Shown here: positions 1,020 through 39,351 of the stretch, in pieces
How the letters are laid out: the number at the start of each line of letters is the position of its first letter
How positions within the stretch are numbered: the stretch's first letter is position 1
DNA from: Candidatus Methanomethylicaceae archaeon
Lineage (GTDB): Archaea; Thermoproteota; Methanomethylicia; Methanomethylicales; Methanomethylicaceae
Length of the DNA: 40,884 nucleotides
Direction of reading: 5' to 3'
Assembly (NCBI GenBank): GCA_025057955.1
Contig: JANXER010000011.1
Location: 1 to 40,884 of the forward strand
Made by a program: the position numbers and the translations under genes
Notes under the pieces: model-generated
What the model was told of the DNA's origin: nothing
The model's input: only the letters and a program-made list of their open reading frames with translations
Database searches by the model: none

Positions 1020-1406
1020 ATGTCTTTTGAAGAAGTAGAAGTAATTAAACGAAGAGCAGAGGCATTCCTAAAAAATGCAAAGTATTTGCTTGAAATTGGC
1101 GAATGGGATTTATCGATTTTTAATCTTGAGCAATATTGTCAATTGATTCTAAAGTATAAGCTTCTGATTAAGACTGGATCATATCCTAGAACACATTCTT
1201 TAAGACGTCTAATAAGAGAGTTATCAAAGATAAGTCCTAAATTAGAATCTTTAATAAAGGATGAGGATAAATTACACTATATTGCTAGATTGGAAGAGGC
1301 TTATTTAACTTCAAGATATATTCCCTATGTTTATGAAGAATTTGAAGCTCGAAGTCTTTTAAAGTTCGTTATAGAGATATTTAAGCCATTAGTGGATGAG
1401 GTTTGA
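1020..1406 (+). CDS. HEPN-domain protein, likely toxin of a HEPN-MNT pair
   Basis: This is a 128-residue, almost all-helical protein with the layout of HEPN toxins: an N-terminal helix rich in K, R and E, a long central helix pair, and a conserved segment near residues 96-105 (TSRYIPYVYE). That segment takes the place of the R-x(4-6)-H RNase motif seen in many HEPN proteins. Arg99 is present but the His is replaced by Tyr, as in HEPN proteins partnered with MNT. It ends inside the start of a nucleotidyltransferase gene, the usual order for such pairs. In characterised HepT/MntA pairs the HEPN protein is an RNase silenced by AMP transfer from its partner. That mechanism is inferred here from family and context. 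Confidence 0.8.
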   Translation: MSFEEVEVIKRRAEAFLKNAKYLLEIGEWDLSIFNLEQYCQLILKYKLLIKTGSYPRTHSLRRLIRELSKISPKLESLIKDEDKLHYIARLEEAYLTSRYIPYVYEEFEARSLLKFVIEIFKPLVDEV

Positions 1407-4442: not shown

Positions 4443-5849
4443 ATGAAGGGAATAGCTCCATTAATTTCAACAATTTTACTTATAATAATTACAATTTCAG
4501 GTGCAACCATTACCTATACTTTCACAAGCGATTTTATTGGAAGTAATTTATTTTCTCCTTCAATGATAATGCCCCTTATAATTGTGGAATCTGTGGAATT
4601 GAAAAACTATGGTGTTGCAAGTATAAATGTGAGAAATTTGGGCACAACTACGTCGATTATAGATAAAGTGTATATGATATCGATATTAGATGGATCTATA
4701 GTAGGAGATTACTCTCCTAGATACTTAGAAATCTCTCCAGGACAGCTTACAAAAATCAATATAGAGCCATCATCATTGATAGCCTCAAAGGATGGAAATT
4801 ATTATTTAAAAGTAGTAACTAAAGAGGGATGGATTGGATTCTCTAAGGCCTTCTTTCTAAAGGGATTAGATTTTGGAGAATGGGTGGAATACTCTGGAAA
4901 TCCAGTTCTAGATCCATATATTAGGGCTTATTATCCATGTGTAATTTACGATGTAAATGGATTTCATGGGCATGGTGTAAGTGCAAAGTATAAGATGTGG
5001 TTTAATTCATATTACTCTAATAGATATAGTATATGGTTTGCTTTTTCTAATGATGGCATAACATGGAACCTTCACAACTCTCCAGTATCTGGTCTATCCG
5101 ATAATTCAGGCCATCCATGGGTTTTGTACTTTTCAGAGGGCTTCCCTGGAAGCAATAGTGGAAATAACCCTAATGGTACAACTATGTACTATAGAATATG
5201 GTACTGGGATGCCAATAAACTATATACAGTTGAAGCCATAAGATATGCAGAATCACCAGATGGAATAAATTGGTATAACGATCAACCGGTAAAAAATGGC
5301 TTAATTCCTATTATAACTGGCTCATCCTCAGATTGGAATAAGGGCTCTTATGGTCCAGCCTGTGTGCTTTATAATCCTTCAGCCTCTAATAGTGGTACTG
5401 ATTGGAAATTTAGGATGTACTATGATGGTACACCTGGGCATAATGAGAGCATTGGAGTGGGCTTCTCTAGTGATGGTATAACTTGGATTGGCTATGATAA
5501 AAATGGAGATGGAAAAGCTGATCCTGTATTAACTGGAAGTAGCTTCGGCTGGGATGCCAATTATGTCTATCCTTGCACAGTTCTTAAGCTTGGATCAAAA
5601 TATTATATGTTTTTCAGTGGGGGTGTAAGTGGCACAAACGAAGGAATAGGTTATGCCATCTCTGATGATGGTCTAACTTGGACTAAGGATCCAAAAAATC
5701 CCATATTTCACAAGAACGATGGAGTTTCATGGAGAAATGCAAGAACTTATACTCCTGCAGTGGTAAAAGCGGAGGATGGTCTTAGAATGTATTTCACAGG
5801 TGTTGACTCAATGGGTAATTATGCCATAGGTTATGCTATGCTAAAATAA
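4443..5849 (+). CDS. Pilin-leader surface protein with five-bladed beta-propeller (glycosidase-like)
   Basis: This 468-residue protein is probably exported. The N-terminus MKGIAPLISTILLIIITI matches class III (archaeal pilin/archaellin) leaders, with a short basic head, KGIAPLIST and a hydrophobic helix. Residues 45-145 look like a beta-sandwich stalk. From about residue 147 the sequence repeats a blade pattern of the type I-x-Y/F-A-x-S-x-DG-I/L-T/N-W at least four times (SNDGITW, SPDGINW, SSDGITW, SDDGLTW), as in five-bladed propellers of the GH43/GH32/GH130 type. A calcium-binding loop DKNGDGKAD sits between blades. Family members hydrolyse or bind glycans, but no catalytic triad could be assigned by eye, so the enzyme or lectin role is open. 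A pilin anchor on a propeller is unusual. A second gene of this architecture begins at 39393. Confidence 0.75.
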   Translation: MKGIAPLISTILLIIITISGATITYTFTSDFIGSNLFSPSMIMPLIIVESVELKNYGVASINVRNLGTTTSIIDKVYMISILDGSIVGDYSPRYLEISPGQLTKINIEPSSLIASKDGNYYLKVVTKEGWIGFSKAFFLKGLDFGEWVEYSGNPVLDPYIRAYYPCVIYDVNGFHGHGVSAKYKMWFNSYYSNRYSIWFAFSNDGITWNLHNSPVSGLSDNSGHPWVLYFSEGFPGSNSGNNPNGTTMYYRIWYWDANKLYTVEAIRYAESPDGINWYNDQPVKNGLIPIITGSSSDWNKGSYGPACVLYNPSASNSGTDWKFRMYYDGTPGHNESIGVGFSSDGITWIGYDKNGDGKADPVLTGSSFGWDANYVYPCTVLKLGSKYYMFFSGGVSGTNEGIGYAISDDGLTWTKDPKNPIFHKNDGVSWRNARTYTPAVVKAEDGLRMYFTGVDSMGNYAIGYAMLK

Positions 5850-6849: not shown

Positions 6850-6874
6850 CTAGTTATAGCATAATACTTTGTTC

Positions 6875-7261
6875 ATGTCAAAATTTCCTTATCTAAAGTC
6901 AAATCTAATCTATATCTATAAAAAATTAGATTATATATTTGTAAAAAGAGAGAAGGTAAAATACAATTTACAAGAAAAAAATGAATCAACTCCTTCCGAA
7001 GGCAGTGATGAGAAACTTAGAAAATATTGGAATAAACTAAAAAAGATAACTATTATTTGGATGCTTGCTTGGCTTTTTCCTGCAGTCATTATACATCTAA
7101 TGAGTCCTATAACTTCCTCAATAAAAATACTTAATGGAATTCCACTTCATTGGTTCAATACTTCTCTTCTATCTATATTGATTGGAATAGCTCTGATATT
7201 TTGCTATGCATTTGTGATGGATAGAGTGGATAGAATCTTCAAAAAGGAGGAGGGAGCATGA
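6875..7261 (+). CDS. Small subunit of a sodium:solute symporter (DUF4212-like)
   Basis: This 128-residue membrane protein has a polar head of about 50 residues and then the family body: KLRKYWNKLKKITIIWMLAW leading into a first membrane helix, a G-x-PLHWF turn, and a second helix ending YAFVMDRVDRIFKKE. This is the layout of the two-helix partner (DUF4212) found beside SSS symporters of the acetate-permease-like subfamily. The N-terminal polar extension is longer than I expect for the family. ATG at 6875 is chosen over a TTG at 6869 because it fits the TATA spacing. The stop overlaps the symporter start by four bases (ATGA), so the two are translationally coupled and probably form one transporter. 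Confidence 0.85.
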   Translation: MSKFPYLKSNLIYIYKKLDYIFVKREKVKYNLQEKNESTPSEGSDEKLRKYWNKLKKITIIWMLAWLFPAVIIHLMSPITSSIKILNGIPLHWFNTSLLSILIGIALIFCYAFVMDRVDRIFKKEEGA

Positions 7262-9009
7262 AATTCTTTGGAAAAGCCATGATTTTATTTTTAGGAGCCT
7301 ATATTTCATTAATTGCTATTCTTGCTTTAATTGAAAATATATTCTTAGCCTCAGCAGTAGCTCTCTTTGGCTCTCTATTCATTTATTTATTTATTGCCTT
7401 TGTTATGAGGACAAAAGATGTTAGTGAATTTTATGTTGCAGGAAGGAGTATAGGATCGATACCGATTGGAGCATCCATTGCCTCAAATTGGATGAGTGGA
7501 GCATCCTTTGTTTCCATGGCTGGAGTTATAGCTTTATTAGGATTTGATGGTTTGCCCTACATAATAGGATGGACTCTAGGGTATTGCATTGCTGCATTTA
7601 TGATCGCTCCATTTATAAGAAAATCCGCTACTTACACTATTCCTGAATTCATTGAAACCAGAGCTTGTTACTGGCCAATTGCTAGACTTGTTGCAGTCTT
7701 TATACTATTCATAATATCCTTTACCTATTTAATAGCGCAATTAGTGACAACAGGAATAATAGTGGGGAGGTTTTTAGGCCTTCCTGCGATCCTTGGAACA
7801 ATTATCTCTTCCATAATAGTAATAGCATTTGCAGGTAGTGGAGGATGGAAGTCTATCGTTTGGGTCAATGTTGCACAATATTTTATACTAATAGTTGCTT
7901 ATTGGTGTGTTTTCATAGCAGCAGCATATGTTGCTGGAATATTTAATCCATGGCCACATATAGGATATGGAGGAATTTTAACCACTCTTGAATTAAAGGA
8001 AATTCAATTTGGCTTAAGAACACTCACTGAGCCCTTCTTGAGAGTATTAGGTGGTGGAATGGGTGAACTTAATTGGATATTCTCAGCATTATGTTTAATG
8101 CTAGGAACAGTAGGTTTACCTCATGTATTATCACAGTTTTATCTAGTTAAAGATGTTAGAACAGCAAGATATGGCGTAGCATGGGGTCTTACGTTTATAG
8201 GATTATTGTATATAACTGCTCCAGTTTATGCAATACTTGCAAGATATGCCTTCTCACAAACATGGGGAATGGCAATAAAGGATGTATTCAATTTAGCATG
8301 GGTTCAGAAATGGCTTCCAACCGGATTAATAAAATTATCAGATGTAAATAGAGATGGAATTCTTCAACCTCCTGAGATGTCATTTCATAATGATATTGTT
8401 GTTATAGGAATGCCAGATATGTTTGGACTTCCATGGTATTTCACACCAATAATTGCAATTGGTGGTCTTGCAGCTGCTTTAAGCACAGCTAATGGTTTAA
8501 TAATGGTAATGGCAATTGGTGCTACAAGGGATATATACAAGAAATTCATAAACCCAAATGCCTCTGAGAGAAAGGAAATTTGGATTGGAAGAGCAATGCT
8601 CATAGTTCTCTCGGTTATATCTAGCATTTTTGGAGCAAGAGCTCTTGATGATCCAACCTTTTCAACATATGTTGCGCTTCTCGTGGGTTGGGCATTTGTC
8701 TTTGCTGCTGCTTCCTTCACACCAATAATAATTCTGGGAATATTTTGGAAAGATCTCAATAAATATGGAATGGTTATGGGAATGATTAGTGGATTAGCCA
8801 TAGCTCTACCATATGTAGTTGGCGTTGGTTTATATGGCATGCCTCCCATTACAATATTTGGAAGCAAAATTGGAACAATTGCATGGGGAACTTTAGCATT
8901 TCTCATTAATCTCATAGTAACCATAGTGGTCTCATTAGCTACAGGAGGGAAAAAGGCAAATACTAAAGAGGTGCTTAGATTTGTAGATGAGCTCAAGACC
9001 CCAGAATAA
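7258..9009 (+). CDS. Sodium:solute symporter, acetate/monocarboxylate-type (SSS family)
   Basis: This 583-residue, multi-helix symporter has the SSS core. GRSIGSIPIGASIASNWMSG (about 62-81) is the first broken helix, and GGLAAALSTANGL (402-414) is the sodium-site helix with Ser409 and Thr410. It belongs with the subfamily that travels with a DUF4212 small subunit. Members are usually annotated as carboxylate (acetate-like) symporters, but substrate cannot be read from sequence. Residues 362-373 (DVNRDGILQPPE) form a perfect EF-hand-type calcium loop between membrane helices. The coupled small subunit precedes it, and the CBS/DUF294 regulators follow without a gap, suggesting that transport is regulated by them. 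Confidence 0.88.
   Translation: MKFFGKAMILFLGAYISLIAILALIENIFLASAVALFGSLFIYLFIAFVMRTKDVSEFYVAGRSIGSIPIGASIASNWMSGASFVSMAGVIALLGFDGLPYIIGWTLGYCIAAFMIAPFIRKSATYTIPEFIETRACYWPIARLVAVFILFIISFTYLIAQLVTTGIIVGRFLGLPAILGTIISSIIVIAFAGSGGWKSIVWVNVAQYFILIVAYWCVFIAAAYVAGIFNPWPHIGYGGILTTLELKEIQFGLRTLTEPFLRVLGGGMGELNWIFSALCLMLGTVGLPHVLSQFYLVKDVRTARYGVAWGLTFIGLLYITAPVYAILARYAFSQTWGMAIKDVFNLAWVQKWLPTGLIKLSDVNRDGILQPPEMSFHNDIVVIGMPDMFGLPWYFTPIIAIGGLAAALSTANGLIMVMAIGATRDIYKKFINPNASERKEIWIGRAMLIVLSVISSIFGARALDDPTFSTYVALLVGWAFVFAAASFTPIIILGIFWKDLNKYGMVMGMISGLAIALPYVVGVGLYGMPPITIFGSKIGTIAWGTLAFLINLIVTIVVSLATGGKKANTKEVLRFVDELKTPE
8341..8376 (+). other. EF-hand-like calcium loop in the symporter
   Basis: These codons specify residues 362-373. 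Asp, Asn, Asp and Glu are at positions 1, 3, 5 and 12 and Gly is at position 6 of the canonical 12-residue calcium-binding loop. Calcium binding is inferred. Confidence 0.6.
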
Positions 9010-10368
9010 GTGGTGAAGATGTTTTTTGAGAATAATATGAATAAAACTCTTAACAAAATAATAAGGCGTAAATTAGTTTGGATTAATCCAGAAGCCTCAA
9101 TAAAAGATGCTGCAGAATTGATGCAAAAGGAGGAAGTATCTTCAGTAGTTATAATGAAGGATGATGTGCCAATAGGTATCATTACTGATTCAGATCTTCG
9201 AAGAGTAGTTGCTGAAGGATGGAATTTTTCTACTAAACTTTATGATTTTTTAGAACATAAGCCAAGAAAGTTCCCAAATCTTATAACTGCTGATATAAAT
9301 GAAAATCAATATAATGTGCTCTCTAGAATGCTTGAACATAGAATTAAACATACTATTGTTATGGATTCTGGAAGACCTATTGGTGTGGCAACAATAGGCG
9401 ATCTTGCATATGGTTTAACTCCATTTCATATACATTATATAATTAAGCTAAGAAAAGCTAAGAGTCTGGAGGAGATTAAACAAATTATTTCTGAATTCAA
9501 AGCCGATCTCATAAAGAATGTTATGGAATTTTCAAAATCTGAAGTGAAGAGTTTCAAATATTTCTTTGAATCTATTAGTAGTGTAATTGATAACGCCATA
9601 AAAGTTATCGCTGAGTTAAGAAGCATTCCATCAAAAAATTTTGTATATGTATTAACAGGAAGTTGGGGCAGAAAGGAACAATTTCTTCTTACTGATAGAG
9701 ATACTTTTGCTATTTATAAAGAAAATCAAATCAATACTATTGAGTTTATTAATGATTTTGAAGATTGCTTAGATGAAATTGGTTTTCCTCCTTGTCAGCA
9801 TGGATATACTGCTCGAAATTTTACATTTGAATTCAATGATTTAATTAAGCTTATAGATGATTGGGGAAGCGATCCAAATAAATTTGTAGTAAATCTTTCC
9901 CTTATTGCAGATGCAAGAGCTATAATTGGTGAAGGTGAATTACTTGAAAAAATTAAGGAAAAATTAATAAATAAACTCTATAAAAATAGACTCTTCATTT
10001 TACAATCTCTTTCTTATCGCCCCCCCGAATCCTTCTTCGGATTGCCTAAGAGCTTTAATTTAAAATCTAAATTGATTGCTCCATTAGAATATCCAATTAG
10101 AGCTTTGGCAATTACAAACAAAATTCTAGCTACTTCTACAATGGATAGAATTTCCCTCTTAAAAGAAGAAAATTTAATCTCAGAGGATCTCTATCAATCC
10201 CTTATTCAAGCATACAATATAGCTATACGCTTTAAGATATTGATACAAACAAAATCTAAAAATCAAATTGAAACATCCTCTCTTACATATACTGAAAGAG
10301 AGCTTCTAAAAAATGCAATAAGAACAATAAAATTCTTTCACAAGTATATTGAAAGAAGCTTCGTTTAG
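9010..10368 (+). CDS. CBS-pair / DUF294 nucleotidyltransferase, catalytic form
   Basis: This 452-residue soluble protein has two CBS domains at about 15-135, which usually bind adenine nucleotides, then a GlnD-like DUF294 nucleotidyltransferase domain and a helical C-terminal DUF294_C part (about 320-450). The active-site motif is intact: Gly217-Ser-Trp-Gly-Arg221 with Asp229 and Asp231 in TDRD. Bacterial relatives beside SSS symporters usually carry an N-terminal cyclic-nucleotide domain, which is missing here and found in the next gene instead. The start is uncertain: GTG 9010, GTG 9013 or ATG 9019 are all possible directly after the symporter stop. It probably modifies or senses a partner according to nucleotide state, but the target is unknown. 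Confidence 0.85.
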   Translation: MVKMFFENNMNKTLNKIIRRKLVWINPEASIKDAAELMQKEEVSSVVIMKDDVPIGIITDSDLRRVVAEGWNFSTKLYDFLEHKPRKFPNLITADINENQYNVLSRMLEHRIKHTIVMDSGRPIGVATIGDLAYGLTPFHIHYIIKLRKAKSLEEIKQIISEFKADLIKNVMEFSKSEVKSFKYFFESISSVIDNAIKVIAELRSIPSKNFVYVLTGSWGRKEQFLLTDRDTFAIYKENQINTIEFINDFEDCLDEIGFPPCQHGYTARNFTFEFNDLIKLIDDWGSDPNKFVVNLSLIADARAIIGEGELLEKIKEKLINKLYKNRLFILQSLSYRPPESFFGLPKSFNLKSKLIAPLEYPIRALAITNKILATSTMDRISLLKEENLISEDLYQSLIQAYNIAIRFKILIQTKSKNQIETSSLTYTERELLKNAIRTIKFFHKYIERSFV

Positions 10369-10379
10369 TGATGTAAGAT

Positions 10380-11984
10380 ATGTTCCCTCCAATACAATAT
10401 TTATCTAAGATAAAGCCTTTTTCTTTTCTTTCAGACTCAGAGCTTACGGAATTGATTGAAAGTATGGAAATATCGCTATATAGAAAGGATGAAATAATAT
10501 TTAAGCCAAAAGAGGAAATTAGTAAATTTTATTTTATAAGGGAGGGAAAAGTTGGGCTTTTTTATGGATCCGAACTCATGTGGATTGTGGAAAAAGATGA
10601 AATAATTGAAACAACTTTCTCTACAACTGCAATAGAATTTACAGCAAAAGCATTAGAGGACTCAATAATTTTTGAATTTGAAATTGCAATATTGAAAAAA
10701 ATACTTCAAAAGAATGTGCTTTTCAAGGAATTTTTAGAAAAATTAATTTCTGGAAAGTTTCTATCTCTTCTCAAATTAACTCGTATGGATATTATAGACA
10801 TCTATGAGCGTCCAATAGGCATGATGATTAGTAGAGCTCCCATTTTTTGCTTTAAGGGAAAAACAATTAAGGAAGTAATTGAACTTATGAATGAGAATGA
10901 TGTAGGAAGCATTGTGGTTGTCGATCCCGAAAATAAACCAATAGGAATAGTAACTCATTCAGATTTATTAAAAATCATAGGAAGGGGAATAGCACTTACA
11001 GAATCAGTTGAAAAAGCCATGTCCTATCCAGTTATAAAAGTAAATTTCAATGCCCCCATTTTAGAGGCCTATCTCAAGTTTTTATCATATGGTATAAATC
11101 ATTTAGTTGTAGTTGATAATGAGAGATTAGCAGGAGTAATTTCAATTAAGGACTTGATTTATAACATTGAACCTCCTGGCCATTTCTTAAAACTCAAAAA
11201 AGAAGTTTTAAAATCTAAAAGTTTAGAGGAAATTAAGAAGCTTTCTCAACAAGTAAATCTTTTGATAAAGAATGCCTTGGAATATGGTTTTAGCTATCCA
11301 GCTATTTCACGATTGATTTCAACAATTTTTGATACTATTCTTAAAAAAATTTTTACAACACTTGAAGTAGACTCAAATACAACCATTATAACAACTGGAA
11401 TCTATGGAAGAAGAGAAATAGATTTCCCTTTGAAAATTAATTTATTAATTATTAATGAAGAGGAGGATAAAAGGCTTTCAAATATCCTTTTTGACTTAAA
11501 TATTCAATTTGAATATTGTAAGAGCATTAATCAATTCTTGGATAATTTACAAAATATTAAACTTCTTAATTTGCTTGATGCTCGTTATATATTTGGTAAT
11601 CGCATTAATTATGTAAAATTCAAGGATCATGTTAAGGAAATGGTAAGACAAAAGCCCCATCTAATCAAGATTTTTATCGATAAAGATTTTGAAGAGTTAG
11701 AGGATGTATCAGAGATGATTTCAAATATAACCAAGGTGCTTTCATATATTCATGGTGATATATCTGCTAGACCTATATGGGAGAGATTAGATTTTCTTAA
11801 ATCTCGTAATATTATTGATGGAGAGTTAGCGAATGATTTGATAGAGGGCTATATAACCCTTAGAACCATTGAACTAAGTGCTAAGATAAACAATGAAAAG
11901 CCATCAATAGATAGAATTGTCTATAAGAAGATTGTGAAAAGAGCAATGGAGTATAAATCATGTATAAGAAAAATGATAGGCTAG
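10380..11984 (+). CDS. cNMP-like / CBS-pair / DUF294 protein with inactive nucleotidyltransferase
   Basis: This 534-residue paralogue of the preceding protein has an extra N-terminal cyclic-nucleotide-binding-like domain (about 10-130), CBS domains (145-262) and a DUF294-like region (270-534). Lined up with the neighbour's GSWGRKE...TDRD, the site reads G340-I-Y-G-R-R-E...L-K-I-N, so both catalytic aspartates are replaced (Lys352 and Asn354) and the Ser is Ile341. Transferase activity is therefore unlikely. The cyclic-nucleotide domain also lacks a clear phosphate-binding Gly-Glu...Arg cassette. It lies 11 bases behind its paralogue, which suggests a regulatory pseudoenzyme partner, perhaps a heterodimer. 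That is inference. Confidence 0.82.
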   Translation: MFPPIQYLSKIKPFSFLSDSELTELIESMEISLYRKDEIIFKPKEEISKFYFIREGKVGLFYGSELMWIVEKDEIIETTFSTTAIEFTAKALEDSIIFEFEIAILKKILQKNVLFKEFLEKLISGKFLSLLKLTRMDIIDIYERPIGMMISRAPIFCFKGKTIKEVIELMNENDVGSIVVVDPENKPIGIVTHSDLLKIIGRGIALTESVEKAMSYPVIKVNFNAPILEAYLKFLSYGINHLVVVDNERLAGVISIKDLIYNIEPPGHFLKLKKEVLKSKSLEEIKKLSQQVNLLIKNALEYGFSYPAISRLISTIFDTILKKIFTTLEVDSNTTIITTGIYGRREIDFPLKINLLIINEEEDKRLSNILFDLNIQFEYCKSINQFLDNLQNIKLLNLLDARYIFGNRINYVKFKDHVKEMVRQKPHLIKIFIDKDFEELEDVSEMISNITKVLSYIHGDISARPIWERLDFLKSRNIIDGELANDLIEGYITLRTIELSAKINNEKPSIDRIVYKKIVKRAMEYKSCIRKMIG

Positions 11985-12589
11985 AGAGAAATATTGAATC
12001 TGATATTGAAAAAGCAGAGTTTTCAGTAATAGATTTAGAGACTACTGGCCTTGATGTAAAGAGAGATGATATTATATCCATTGCTATAATTCCTATGACG
12101 GGTTTAAAAATCCATTTTAAGAAATACTACTATACTCTTATTAGACCGAGTAAATTTAGTGAAAAATCTATAAAAATTCATGGTATATGTCCCGGTGATT
12201 TAAATCAAGCACCTAGGTTTGAGGAGATCTATGAAAAGATAATGGAGATGTTAAATAATAAAATTATAGTTGGTTTTAATGTAGATTTTGATATTGCTTT
12301 TTTAAGGGAGAAATTTAAGAAAATCGAAAAGAAAATTGACTTAAATTATGTAGATATAAAAAAAATTGAAAGTTGGATTCTAATAAGAAGGGGAACACCT
12401 AAGCCAATTATAGAGCTCTCAGATCTCATTAGTAGATATGGAATAGAGGAAGGGGCACAGCACAATGCTTTAGTTGATGCCTATACTATCGCAAGGATTT
12501 TTCAAAATCAATTGAAAACTCTTTTGACATTTAATATTAAATTGAATGATCTATTAAAATTAGGCAGGAAAAATGATTTTTTTAATTAA
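11960..12589 (+). CDS. DnaQ-like 3'-5' exonuclease (DEDDh family)
   Basis: This 209-residue protein has the three exonuclease motifs: Asp25-Leu-Glu27 in DLETTGLD, GFNVDFDIAFL with Asp111, and His168-x4-Asp173 in QHNALVDAY, which makes it DEDDh type. It overlaps the 3' end of the preceding gene by 25 bases and no later start exists before the first motif, so translation is coupled. A polymerase III epsilon-like exonuclease is a recurrent neighbour of symporter/DUF294 loci in bacteria, as I recall, so its role may be in nucleotide or RNA turnover linked to signalling rather than replication proofreading. The substrate is unknown. Confidence 0.88.
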   Translation: MYKKNDRLERNIESDIEKAEFSVIDLETTGLDVKRDDIISIAIIPMTGLKIHFKKYYYTLIRPSKFSEKSIKIHGICPGDLNQAPRFEEIYEKIMEMLNNKIIVGFNVDFDIAFLREKFKKIEKKIDLNYVDIKKIESWILIRRGTPKPIIELSDLISRYGIEEGAQHNALVDAYTIARIFQNQLKTLLTFNIKLNDLLKLGRKNDFFN

Positions 12590-13911: not shown

Positions 13912-13986
13912 TGGTGGACCGGGTGGGATTTGAACCCACGACCCCCTGCGTGCAAGGCAGGTGATCTGCCGCTAATCTACCGGCCC
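13912..13986 (-). tRNA. tRNA-Ala (TGC)
   Basis: The acceptor stem GGGCCGG/CCGGTCC contains the G3:U70 wobble pair that marks alanine tRNAs. The anticodon loop CTTGCAC gives TGC. The discriminator is A and CCA is encoded (13912-13914 on this strand's 3' end). Its 5' end overlaps the last 15 bases of the upstream nucleotidyltransferase gene on the same strand. Confidence 0.96.
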
Positions 13987-14340
13987 TATTTGCTTAAGTG
14001 AATCTGAACTTTTATCCTTTTTGCGAATTAAAATAATTTTTCCCTTTTCCATAGCCTCTTGAACCACTAAACTTTTGGATTTTAACCTTTCAAACTCCTC
14101 CTCAGTAAAGCCAAAGGCCTCAAGCAATATCTTATGCTTCCAATACTTTTGTAAAATAAGCATTCTTCTTTCGAAGGGCATTCCTTTAAAATCCTCTGAT
14201 ATTATAATTAAGTCTATATCGCTATCCCTTAATCTTTCACCACTTAAAGAAGATCCAAATAGTATGGCAAACTTTACATTTATAGGCAAACTCCTCAGAT
14301 AGCGTCTTATCTCTCTTTCAATATAAGCTCTTGAGAGCAT
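13972..14340 (-). CDS. MNT-type nucleotidyltransferase (antitoxin), second pair
   Basis: This 122-residue nucleotidyltransferase has Gly29-Ser30, ten residues, then Asp41-x-Asp43 (GSSLSGERLRDSDID), the same geometry as the first MNT in this window. ATG at 14340 is preferred, and a longer frame begins at 14370. Either start overlaps the upstream HEPN gene. The last five codons and the stop lie within the D-arm side of tRNA-Ala, so the original C-terminus may have been replaced by read-through into the tRNA. It is expected to silence the HEPN partner by nucleotide transfer, as inferred from family. Confidence 0.84.
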   Translation of the reverse strand: MLSRAYIEREIRRYLRSLPINVKFAILFGSSLSGERLRDSDIDLIIISEDFKGMPFERRMLILQKYWKHKILLEAFGFTEEEFERLKSKSLVVQEAMEKGKIILIRKKDKSSDSLKQIGPVD

Positions 14341-14708
14341 TGGAAAACCCTCTTGGTTTTCATGAGGCAATCTAATGCAAAATTTTTAGTTATTATTTCT
14401 CCAGGCAGACCCATTGCAATATCTGGATATCTAGTTATGAAATAATATGGAGAGATTAAAGCGAGAAAATCCTTGAGCTCTTCTTCTAAATTGAGCTCCT
14501 TCTCTAATGGTTTATACAATGATAGAATTTTATGAGTTTTTATAGGCCTTTTTTTCAAAACCTTCAACCATAAACCCTTAAAGAGCTTCTCCAAGGCTTG
14601 CTGACAATTAAATGCCACATCTTCATAGAAGCCAAGCTCAAAATATTTTTCTGCTTTGATTAAACTTCTCTTGGCATCCTCAATCCACCAATCTACTTCC
14701 TCTCTCAT
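14307..14708 (-). CDS. HEPN-domain protein, likely toxin of the second HEPN-MNT pair
   Basis: This 133-residue helical protein begins MREEVDWWIEDAKRSLIKAE, the typical HEPN first helix. It has the conserved CQQALEKLFKGLWL helix and the FITRYPD segment with Arg-Tyr-Pro-Asp at the site that carries the RNase motif in HEPN toxins. ATG at 14708 is chosen because it opens on family sequence and has GAGG nine bases upstream. A TTG at 14750 would add 14 residues. It overlaps the MNT gene behind it. The two pairs in this window are only distantly alike, so they are not a recent duplication. Confidence 0.83.
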   Translation of the reverse strand: MREEVDWWIEDAKRSLIKAEKYFELGFYEDVAFNCQQALEKLFKGLWLKVLKKRPIKTHKILSLYKPLEKELNLEEELKDFLALISPYYFITRYPDIAMGLPGEIITKNFALDCLMKTKRVFQCSQELILKER

Positions 14709-14764
14709 CAAGCTAATCCTCTTTGGCTTTACCTTTATTAAATTTTCCAAAGTGAATGTTGATG

Positions 14765-37805: not shown

Positions 37806-38435
37806 TTGATAATAACGAAGCAAAAGCCTAATCTATTGAAGTATGTAGAGAATTACGATAGAATTTTCATAATTGGCTGTGGGGAATGTGCTACTGTTTG
37901 TAAAACAGGAGGAGAGGAGCAAGTTGAAGCTCTTTCCAAAATCTTAGGAGATAGAGTTATAGGAAAAATAGTGATTGAAAGTCCTTGTAATGTTAAGTTT
38001 TTGAAGAAGGATTTAAAACCCTCTTTGTATGAAGGGGCTAAAGCTATATTAGCTCTTTGCTGTGGCATTGGAGCACAGACAATTGCTGAATTTACAAATA
38101 AAGAAATCATAGCTGGATTGGATACGCTATTCATGGGAGAAGTTGGAATGAAGGGAAAATTCTATGAGAAATGTAGAGCTTGTGGTTTATGTATTTTATA
38201 TGAAACTGGTGGAATTTGTCCAATTTCAAGATGTGCAAAAAAGCTTCTAAATGGCCCTTGTGGTGGAATGGTAGATGAAAAATGTGAGGTTAGTAATTAC
38301 TCAAAGGATTGTGCTTGGGTATTAATATATAAAAGGTTAAAAAAACTTGGAAGAGAAAGTGAGCTTGAAAAAATAAGAGAAGCTCGTGATTGGTCAACTA
38401 TATCTCAACCAGGAGAAATAACATTGGGCGATTAA
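37806..38435 (+). CDS. metV: MetV-like zinc/iron-sulfur subunit of methylenetetrahydrofolate reductase
   Basis: This 209-residue protein has the cysteine arrangement of MetV: Cys25-x2-Cys28-x3-Cys32 (CGECATVC), then a central CNVKF and CCGIGAQ segment, and CRACGLC with CPISRC and GPCGG toward the end. MetV pairs with MetF and binds an iron-sulfur cluster and zinc, linking the flavin site to other electron donors. The start is TTG 37806. The MetF start follows by one base, so the two are co-translated. Confidence 0.88.
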   Translation: MIITKQKPNLLKYVENYDRIFIIGCGECATVCKTGGEEQVEALSKILGDRVIGKIVIESPCNVKFLKKDLKPSLYEGAKAILALCCGIGAQTIAEFTNKEIIAGLDTLFMGEVGMKGKFYEKCRACGLCILYETGGICPISRCAKKLLNGPCGGMVDEKCEVSNYSKDCAWVLIYKRLKKLGRESELEKIREARDWSTISQPGEITLGD

Positions 38436-38436
38436 C

Positions 38437-39351
38437 ATGAAAAGAATATTCAGTGATTTTATGAGGGCTCTTAATAACAACTCTTTCGTCTTCACTAGTG
38501 AAATAGAACCAAAGAAGACCGTTAATGTAGAAGGCATTGTAAATATAGCTAAAAAATTGAAAAATTATGTTATAGCATGTAATATTACTGATAATCCAAG
38601 AGCTCATGCTTATATGAATAGCATAATTGCTTCTTATATAATTCAGAAAGAGGCTGGAATGGAAACAATATGCCATATGACGGTAAGAGATAGAAATAGA
38701 TTAGCATTAATCTCTGATATATTAGGGGCATATGTGCTTGGAATAAGGAACATCTTAGCTATAACAGGAGATCATACAACAATGGGTGATAATCCTAGTG
38801 CTCTTCCAGTTTATGATTTAGATTCTACACAATTCATTAAAATGGTGAGAAGGATGATTGACGAAGGGGTGGATTTAGCTGGCAATAAGATTAATGGAGA
38901 GATAAAAATGCATATTGGAGCTGTGGGTAATCCAAATGCCAATCCATTGGAGCCAGAGATTTATAAAGTTAGAAGAAAGATTATGGCTGGCGCAGAGTTT
39001 ATACAAACGCAAATAGTGTTCGATTTAGACAAAGCTAAGAGATTTATAGAAGAAATAAATGCTCCTCCTCCCTATGTACTAATTGGAATTTTTCCCTGTA
39101 ACTCATATAAAATGGCAGATTTCATTGATAAGAAAATCCCTGGTATATCTGTTCCAGCAGAATATAAAGAGGAGCTTAGAAGAGCTGAGGGCTTTAAAGA
39201 TAAAATAAATGAGGTTAATATAGAATACTTCTCTGAAATGATAAAGGAATTGAGAAAAACTACAAGGGCCTCCGGCGTTCATATAATGACAATAAAATAT
39301 GAAGATATAGTTTGTAAAATAATAGAGAATGTTAAGTCTATAATGAATTAA
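38437..39351 (+). CDS. metF: Methylenetetrahydrofolate reductase (MetF)
   Basis: This 304-residue TIM-barrel flavoenzyme begins with FTSEIEPKKTVNVEG (22-36), where Glu is the conserved active-site residue. HMTVRDRNR and ITGDHTTMGDNP are the folate and flavin contact segments, and QTQIVFD lies near the C-terminal half. It converts methylene-tetrahydrofolate to methyl form, or the reverse, in one-carbon or Wood-Ljungdahl metabolism. In archaea with tetrahydromethanopterin the unrelated Mer does this, so a folate-type MetF is notable. MetV precedes it and is its likely partner. Confidence 0.92.
   Translation: MKRIFSDFMRALNNNSFVFTSEIEPKKTVNVEGIVNIAKKLKNYVIACNITDNPRAHAYMNSIIASYIIQKEAGMETICHMTVRDRNRLALISDILGAYVLGIRNILAITGDHTTMGDNPSALPVYDLDSTQFIKMVRRMIDEGVDLAGNKINGEIKMHIGAVGNPNANPLEPEIYKVRRKIMAGAEFIQTQIVFDLDKAKRFIEEINAPPPYVLIGIFPCNSYKMADFIDKKIPGISVPAEYKEELRRAEGFKDKINEVNIEYFSEMIKELRKTTRASGVHIMTIKYEDIVCKIIENVKSIMN

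Follow-up and report, generated by a model that had tools for sequence, protein, structure and literature searches.

Two adjacent genes of an archaeal transporter cassette, A and B, form a real and conserved two-gene version, apparently undescribed, of the DUF294 regulator linked to symporters. A carries an intact nucleotidyltransferase active site, while B, as modelled, is a nucleotidyltransferase fold minus the catalytic residues. The co-inheritance of A with a dead B in two unrelated archaeal groups suggests an uncharacterised control of carbon-source uptake that pairs an enzyme with a pseudoenzyme. The genes were analysed in a stretch of 40,884 nucleotides (the window) from a 1.2 Mb archaeal MAG, and the adjacent positions that a preliminary description of this DNA had given for them were confirmed (Table 1). 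The cassette genes abut or overlap, except that 11 bases separate A from B. The symporter ORF overlaps that of the small subunit by 4 bases, the GTG start of A lies directly after the symporter stop codon (an in-frame ATG is present at 9019), and the longest ORF of the exonuclease shares 25 bases with the end of B. The DUF4212 ORF opens at TTG and its real start is probably further in. Judged by its context, the symporter is acetate/monocarboxylate-like, with acetate as its probable substrate. The catalytic residues of the exonuclease (D-E, D and H-D) are intact in 16/16 relatives. A sigma-70 promoter and terminator scan, whose model leaves archaeal promoters uncovered, returned nothing above chance.

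Table 1 Genes of the cassette in the window
Gene or product	Position	Strand	Support
DUF4212 / symporter small subunit	6869..7261	+	PF13937 58.7 bits; TIGR03647 above cut-off
SSS-family sodium:solute symporter, VC_2705 type	7258..9009	+	TIGR03648 479 bits (cut-off 320.75)
Gene A: CBS-CBS-DUF294 nucleotidyltransferase-DUF294_C	9010..10368	+	Pfam; catalytic D229 and D231 of TDRD intact
Gene B: cNMP-like-CBS-CBS-dead nucleotidyltransferase-helical C-terminal domain	10380..11984	+	Pfam, motif table, GlnE-like model
DnaQ-type DEDDh 3'-5' exonuclease	11960..12589	+	RNase_T 97 bits

Several other genes of the window were recorded. Two overlapping ORFs of HEPN-MNT type, coding for HEPN (PF05168) and a small nucleotidyltransferase (PF01909), occupy 13972-14750 (-), and another HEPN gene lies far from it at 1020-1406 (+). 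Tandem MetV-like (DUF5981) and MetF-like (MTHFR) genes at 37806-39351 (+) represent a bacterial-looking methylene-tetrahydrofolate reductase pair in an archaeal MAG with methanogen-related relatives. A 468-aa protein (4443-5849, +) has a type IV pilin-like N-terminus, no Pfam match and repeats that by eye resemble glycoside-hydrolase propellers.

Pfam scans of A detected two CBS domains (66.8 bits), DUF294 (PF03445, 52.7 bits; cut-off 21) and DUF294_C (PF10335, 66.8 bits; cut-off 22.5), with no cNMP domain. The protein carries an intact GSWGR.EQ..TDRD motif. For motif counts, 19 A and 17 B proteins were aligned with 22 single-gene proteins. The GS..R.EQ...[TS]D.D active site was present in 19/19 A proteins and the aspartate pair was kept in all 19 A as well as in 22/22 single-gene relatives. 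The Thr/Asp positions of the CBS domains that are characteristic of adenylate-binding pairs were conserved in 18-19 of the 19 A proteins. The intact site and missing cyclic-nucleotide domain originally ascribed to the first protein were thus confirmed, and the intact site is a general property of A. In Pfam scans neither A nor B matched an HD or ACT domain, and each chain has a single nucleotidyltransferase-type domain.

The cyclic-nucleotide-like domain ascribed to the second protein was likewise recovered in B, where cNMP_binding (PF00027) scored 30.7 bits (cut-off 27.5) in the window and 35-56 bits for three further B proteins; two CBS domains were also detected by Pfam (84.4 bits). A DUF294 match was absent from the window's B at E<=1, DUF294_C reached just 14.5 bits, below its cut-off, and residues 308-426 gave a weak GlnD match. 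The best PF03445 score among three other scanned B proteins was 18.9 bits against the cut-off of 21, and in genome searches the B of G019 and G437 came near or just over that cut-off solely when neighbouring frame pieces were added. The HMM searches that the preliminary description had proposed for CBS, DUF294 and DUF294_C therefore returned all three in A, whereas only CBS exceeded its cut-off in B.

Alignment of the two window proteins sets B GIYGRREIDFPLKINLL against A GSWGRKEQFLLTDRDTF, with TDRD changed to LKIN (Asp to Lys and Asp to Asn). This replacement had been read correctly from the window, but as a double loss it describes only the majority of B proteins. The first Asp is gone in 17/17, its column holding V, K, Q, R, S, T, E or M, while the second is gone in 13/17 and retained in 4. 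The Gln of EQ is absent from all 17 and the Ser of GS from 14, and the C-x-HGYT (HGY) motif is deleted in every one. Conserved in B are G340/G343/R344/E346 and D400/R402/G406 (window B numbering), the CBS Thr/Asp positions (15-17 of 17, one of them being occupied by Ser or Thr) and P350, present in 17/17 where A has Leu/Lys and single-gene proteins mostly Ala/Val/Lys. The proposed split into a catalytic protein and a dead partner is consequently a conserved one, with 19/19 A intact and 17/17 B devoid of the first Asp. The 16 other loci rule out a freak of one MAG.

The loss of Asp throughout the B clade, with retention in A and single-gene relatives, argues that neither chance nor decay is responsible. 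B is under purifying selection: its dN/dS in close pairs is 0.05-0.21, similar to that of A, and no stop codons occur across 17 copies. These values contradict the idea of a functionless B, decaying or redundant and beside A by chance, to which we give almost no credence; such a paralogue would fit the lost catalytic residues and an evolutionary rate about 1.26 times that of A, but not the persistence of one B clade across two phyla and many rearrangements. The nucleotidyltransferase superfamily requires the aspartate pair for metal binding, and because this dependence is established, the B sequences would be those of a true pseudoenzyme.

Structural models agree with this assignment of fold. 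AlphaFold models from six-sequence alignments gave pLDDT values of 75.5 (A) and 71.5 (B), the cNMP domain of B being modelled poorly (mostly 26-44). Both models contain a nucleotidyltransferase fold followed by a helical substrate-binding domain, as in GlnD/GlnE, and both match two GlnE adenylyltransferase structures in Foldseek (1v4a, E about 2e-8 for A as well as B; 3k7d, E 1e-7 for A and 7e-7 for B). The top structural match of A is the DrrA AMP-transferase 6yx5 (TM 0.48 by query); the TM-scores are moderate throughout, about 0.4-0.5, on models of pLDDT 71-75. GlnE possesses two related nucleotidyltransferase domains with opposite reactions, one of them removing AMP. B might accordingly still be an enzyme, either through other acidic residues or through a reverse or hydrolytic reaction like that of the AMP-removing GlnE domain, and it does retain the G..GR.E core together with D400/R402/G406 and has both GlnE domains among its structural matches. 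The column of the first Asp, however, contains no consistent acidic substitute, unlike a conserved alternative site, and the HGY region has been deleted. We consider remaining activity in B improbable.

The distribution of B was determined by whole-genome profile searches; an earlier five-sequence pattern scan had caught only 5 true B loci, and its hits L056-L058 were rejected as other CBS proteins. Of the 17 genomes in which an A/B pair was found, 5 are Methanomethyliaceae, the family of the window, and 12 belong to the Archaeoglobus class, that is, the class of Archaeoglobus sp. UBA234, in which profile searches detected B in 12/59 genomes. B was not found elsewhere among the sampled 398 Thermoproteota and 295 other-phylum genomes, the remaining hits being single-gene proteins or A. 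Every B has an A no more than two genes away (17/17). No B with intact catalytic residues and no B without A was encountered, in keeping with the preliminary description, although the reverse dependence fails once, since A occurs without B in G408, where the profile search finds no B in the genome. A is also without B in G014, on a contig that ends inside A. Many Archaeoglobus-class genomes hold a separate, intact single-gene DUF294 protein in addition. DUF294-like ORFs of about 350 aa were seen in other Halobacteriota, outside SSS loci (L137/L138).

Gene order provides further evidence of association. The order (acs)-DUF4212-SSS-A-B-DnaQ is found on one strand in Methanomethyliaceae and in four Archaeoglobus-class loci, and eight further loci of the Archaeoglobus class carry SSS-A and B-DnaQ on opposite strands, tail to tail. 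Whatever the strand arrangement, A stands directly behind SSS or, in three loci, after a DUF1646 transporter gene, and B stands directly upstream of DnaQ in 16/16 loci with DnaQ on the contig, including the opposite-strand loci. The coupling to a symporter and an exonuclease noted originally in the window is thereby upheld, A following DUF4212/SSS and B preceding DnaQ. In many archaeal loci, and likewise in bacterial single-gene operons, acs adjoins the cassette. One locus (L136, 5696-11374) reads acs-DUF4212-SSS-A, with neither B nor DnaQ; its A is closest to that of Archaeoglobus sp. UBA234, and B and DnaQ therefore look lost together.

A different history emerged from the one first proposed, in which the genes were a duplicated single regulator and were expected to appear as sisters in a tree. 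A maximum-likelihood tree was built for the CBS-nucleotidyltransferase-C region that the proteins share (56 rows). In it, B formed one clade (100/100), sister to the Archaeoglobus-class single-gene DUF294 proteins (100/98), and a tree of the CBS pair only placed B identically (99/96). Fifteen of the 18 A proteins formed one clade beside Thermoproteota single-gene proteins. Forcing A (15 rows) and B into one clade lost 92 log-likelihood units (p-AU 6.8e-6), and the tree and AU test together rule out a simple tandem duplication of one regulator. Judged from these sequences, B is related by descent to DUF294 proteins; given the long branches in the tree, the exact sister groups need caution. The A and symporter of Methanomethyliaceae are nested within Archaeoglobus-class sequences, and the position of B is compatible with this. 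Such nesting suggests transfer of the whole cassette, which the Methanomethyliaceae probably acquired in this way. The Thermoproteota single-gene proteins L079-L085 have a shortened N-terminal cNMP-like region, missed by Pfam where scanned (L085), which is a possible intermediate towards the cNMP-less A.

The A proteins of L133-L135 occupy their own branch and have a TDQDN-like motif, as do single-gene proteins; the separate branch implies that the role of A may be filled more than once, or replaced. Directly upstream of this divergent A type lies the DUF1646 gene (L133 9108-10214, L134 2847-3938, L135 4398-5492; CitMHS-like in the two copies scanned), and in one of the three loci an extra isochorismatase-like gene intervenes between SSS and A. 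The position of DUF1646 indicates that a second transporter may be under the same module. The L134 symporter (1023-2777) differs in type from those of L133/L135 (70% vs 40% identity to the window's). Since A and B of L134 match those of L133/L135, this transporter swap fits an A-B unit able to change its transporter.

The pairwise evolutionary distances of A track those of B with a correlation of 0.86-0.87, above the values for A-DnaQ and A-SSS. Partial correlations, with the other two genes held, were 0.72 for A-B, 0.71 for B-DnaQ and 0.46 for A-SSS, the rest ranging from -0.24 to 0.01, and point to a chain SSS-A-B-DnaQ; distance correlations include common descent and gene linkage and large distances saturate, so the values give support for contact rather than proof. 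We propose, with confidence that stands about midway between doubt and conviction, that A and B belong obligately together as the two subunits of a single module regulating a sodium:carboxylate symporter, probably one for acetate, with A a GlnE-type protein nucleotidyltransferase and B a pseudoenzyme adaptor to the exonuclease. The module reading is opposed by the four B that keep the second Asp, by the acs of the window's genome, which lies away from the cassette (at G000:C14; 78% identity to the G010 copy), and by G408, in which A is without B and DnaQ and may therefore work alone. A competing explanation, which we regard as possible but rather doubtful, is that B is a pseudoenzyme adaptor of DnaQ only, has no contact with A and neighbours it since both control one transporter. 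B and DnaQ are adjacent wherever both are present, sit together opposite the strand of A in 8 loci and share the 0.71 partial correlation, all of which this explanation would account for; yet the A-B partial correlation is equally strong, and in the genomes searched B was never found without A while A, DnaQ and SSS occur without B elsewhere.

If A and B do form one module, the CBS pair of A would read adenylate nucleotides and hence energy state, and A would modify a component of uptake or activation with a nucleotide, AMP being the most likely, the candidate targets being the symporter, the DUF4212 small subunit or acetyl-CoA synthetase. B would serve as a non-catalytic, allosteric adaptor coupling A to the neighbouring DEDDh exonuclease, and the latter, as a phosphodiesterase, could remove the modification or destroy the nucleotide signal. 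We infer the A-B heteromer, protein AMPylation, its target, adenylate sensing and the eraser role of the exonuclease. The conserved CBS Thr/Asp positions, the GlnE-like fold and the context of acs and an acetate symporter make energy-dependent nucleotidylation of a pathway component the most likely activity of A. The fully specified scheme, a writer-adaptor-eraser system in which A modifies the symporter or an acetate-activation component, B allosterically controls A and brings in the exonuclease, which then takes the nucleotide off, is put forward tentatively, as one that is more likely wrong than right. Nucleic acids and nucleotides are the usual substrates of DEDDh exonucleases, and A could instead make or modify an RNA or a small nucleotide signal that the exonuclease degrades, with no protein being modified. 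The usual substrates of the exonuclease and its recurrence as a partner in both bacteria and archaea would suit such a signal, but the closest structural relatives of A, GlnE and DrrA, modify proteins and no RNA-binding domain was found in A by Pfam; we think this alternative somewhat unlikely.

Were the writer-adaptor-eraser scheme true, it would represent control of carboxylate uptake by protein nucleotidylation with a dedicated pseudoenzyme, in a module built from two separate DUF294 lineages and not by tandem duplication. A pseudo-nucleotidyltransferase would then join the known kinds of pseudoenzyme, and the way in which methanogen-related and Archaeoglobus-class archaea regulate carbon uptake post-translationally would become easier to approach. 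Because the catalytic part and a dead partner bearing the sensor are now separate proteins, both kept in two phyla, the domain roles can be tested apart. The literature searched yielded no functional study of a DUF294 protein, or of DUF4212 with symporter, acetate or CBS, and in the portions of the literature consulted mentions of DUF294 concerned HEPN/GlnR comparative genomics or the unrelated DUF2946. To call the pair an undescribed archaeal module, as was done at the outset, is reasonable for the split itself, but the core operon is widely known in bacteria by annotation, and in bacteria and archaea alike DUF294 proteins adjoin acetate-type symporters, acetyl-CoA synthetase and a DnaQ-like exonuclease.

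Bacterial operons with a single-gene cNMP-CBS2-DUF294-DUF294_C protein resemble the archaeal cassette in neighbours, in domain set and order and in an adjacent acs. The plasmid-borne examples of Paracoccus denitrificans (PDEN_RS22665-22695, acs-DUF4212-SSS-DUF294-(two genes)-exonuclease) and Microvirga ossetica (BB934_RS41255-41235, acs-DUF485-ActP-DUF294-exonuclease) bear out the earlier statement that bacteria keep these domains in one protein. That protein has an intact site, whereas in the archaeal pair A has the active site and B the full cNMP-like domain and a dead site. The presence of the same operon in bacteria with one intact DUF294 protein makes the archaeal pair a variant of an old and widespread operon. 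Among archaea, the Thermoproteota single-gene proteins (L079-L085) lie in SSS-DUF294-DnaQ(-acs) loci, are nearest to A and have an intact aspartate pair; those of the Archaeoglobus class (L104-L124) are nearest to B, yet their aspartate pair is also intact, and the one examined, L124, adjoins a different SSS.

The DrrA AMP-transferase domain, the best structural match of A, is a protein adenylyltransferase. DrrA is a secreted bacterial effector without CBS domains or transporter context, unlike A. AcuB, a Bacillus CBS-ACT protein of acetoin/acetate metabolism, matches B in its CBS part (Foldseek) and is an adenylate-binding CBS protein tied to acetyl-CoA metabolism, as B may be; unlike B it has no nucleotidyltransferase, and its partner is an acetyltransferase. 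The likeness of A and B to GlnD/GlnE is a structural match and consists in the same type of nucleotidyltransferase with a helical C-terminal domain, and DUF294_C has been grouped with GlnD/GlnE (PMC3710099). GlnD has HD and ACT domains, whereas A and B have neither and would sense by CBS and the cNMP-like domain. GlnE holds two such domains with divided roles in one chain; in A and B these are separate genes, one unit of which is dead.
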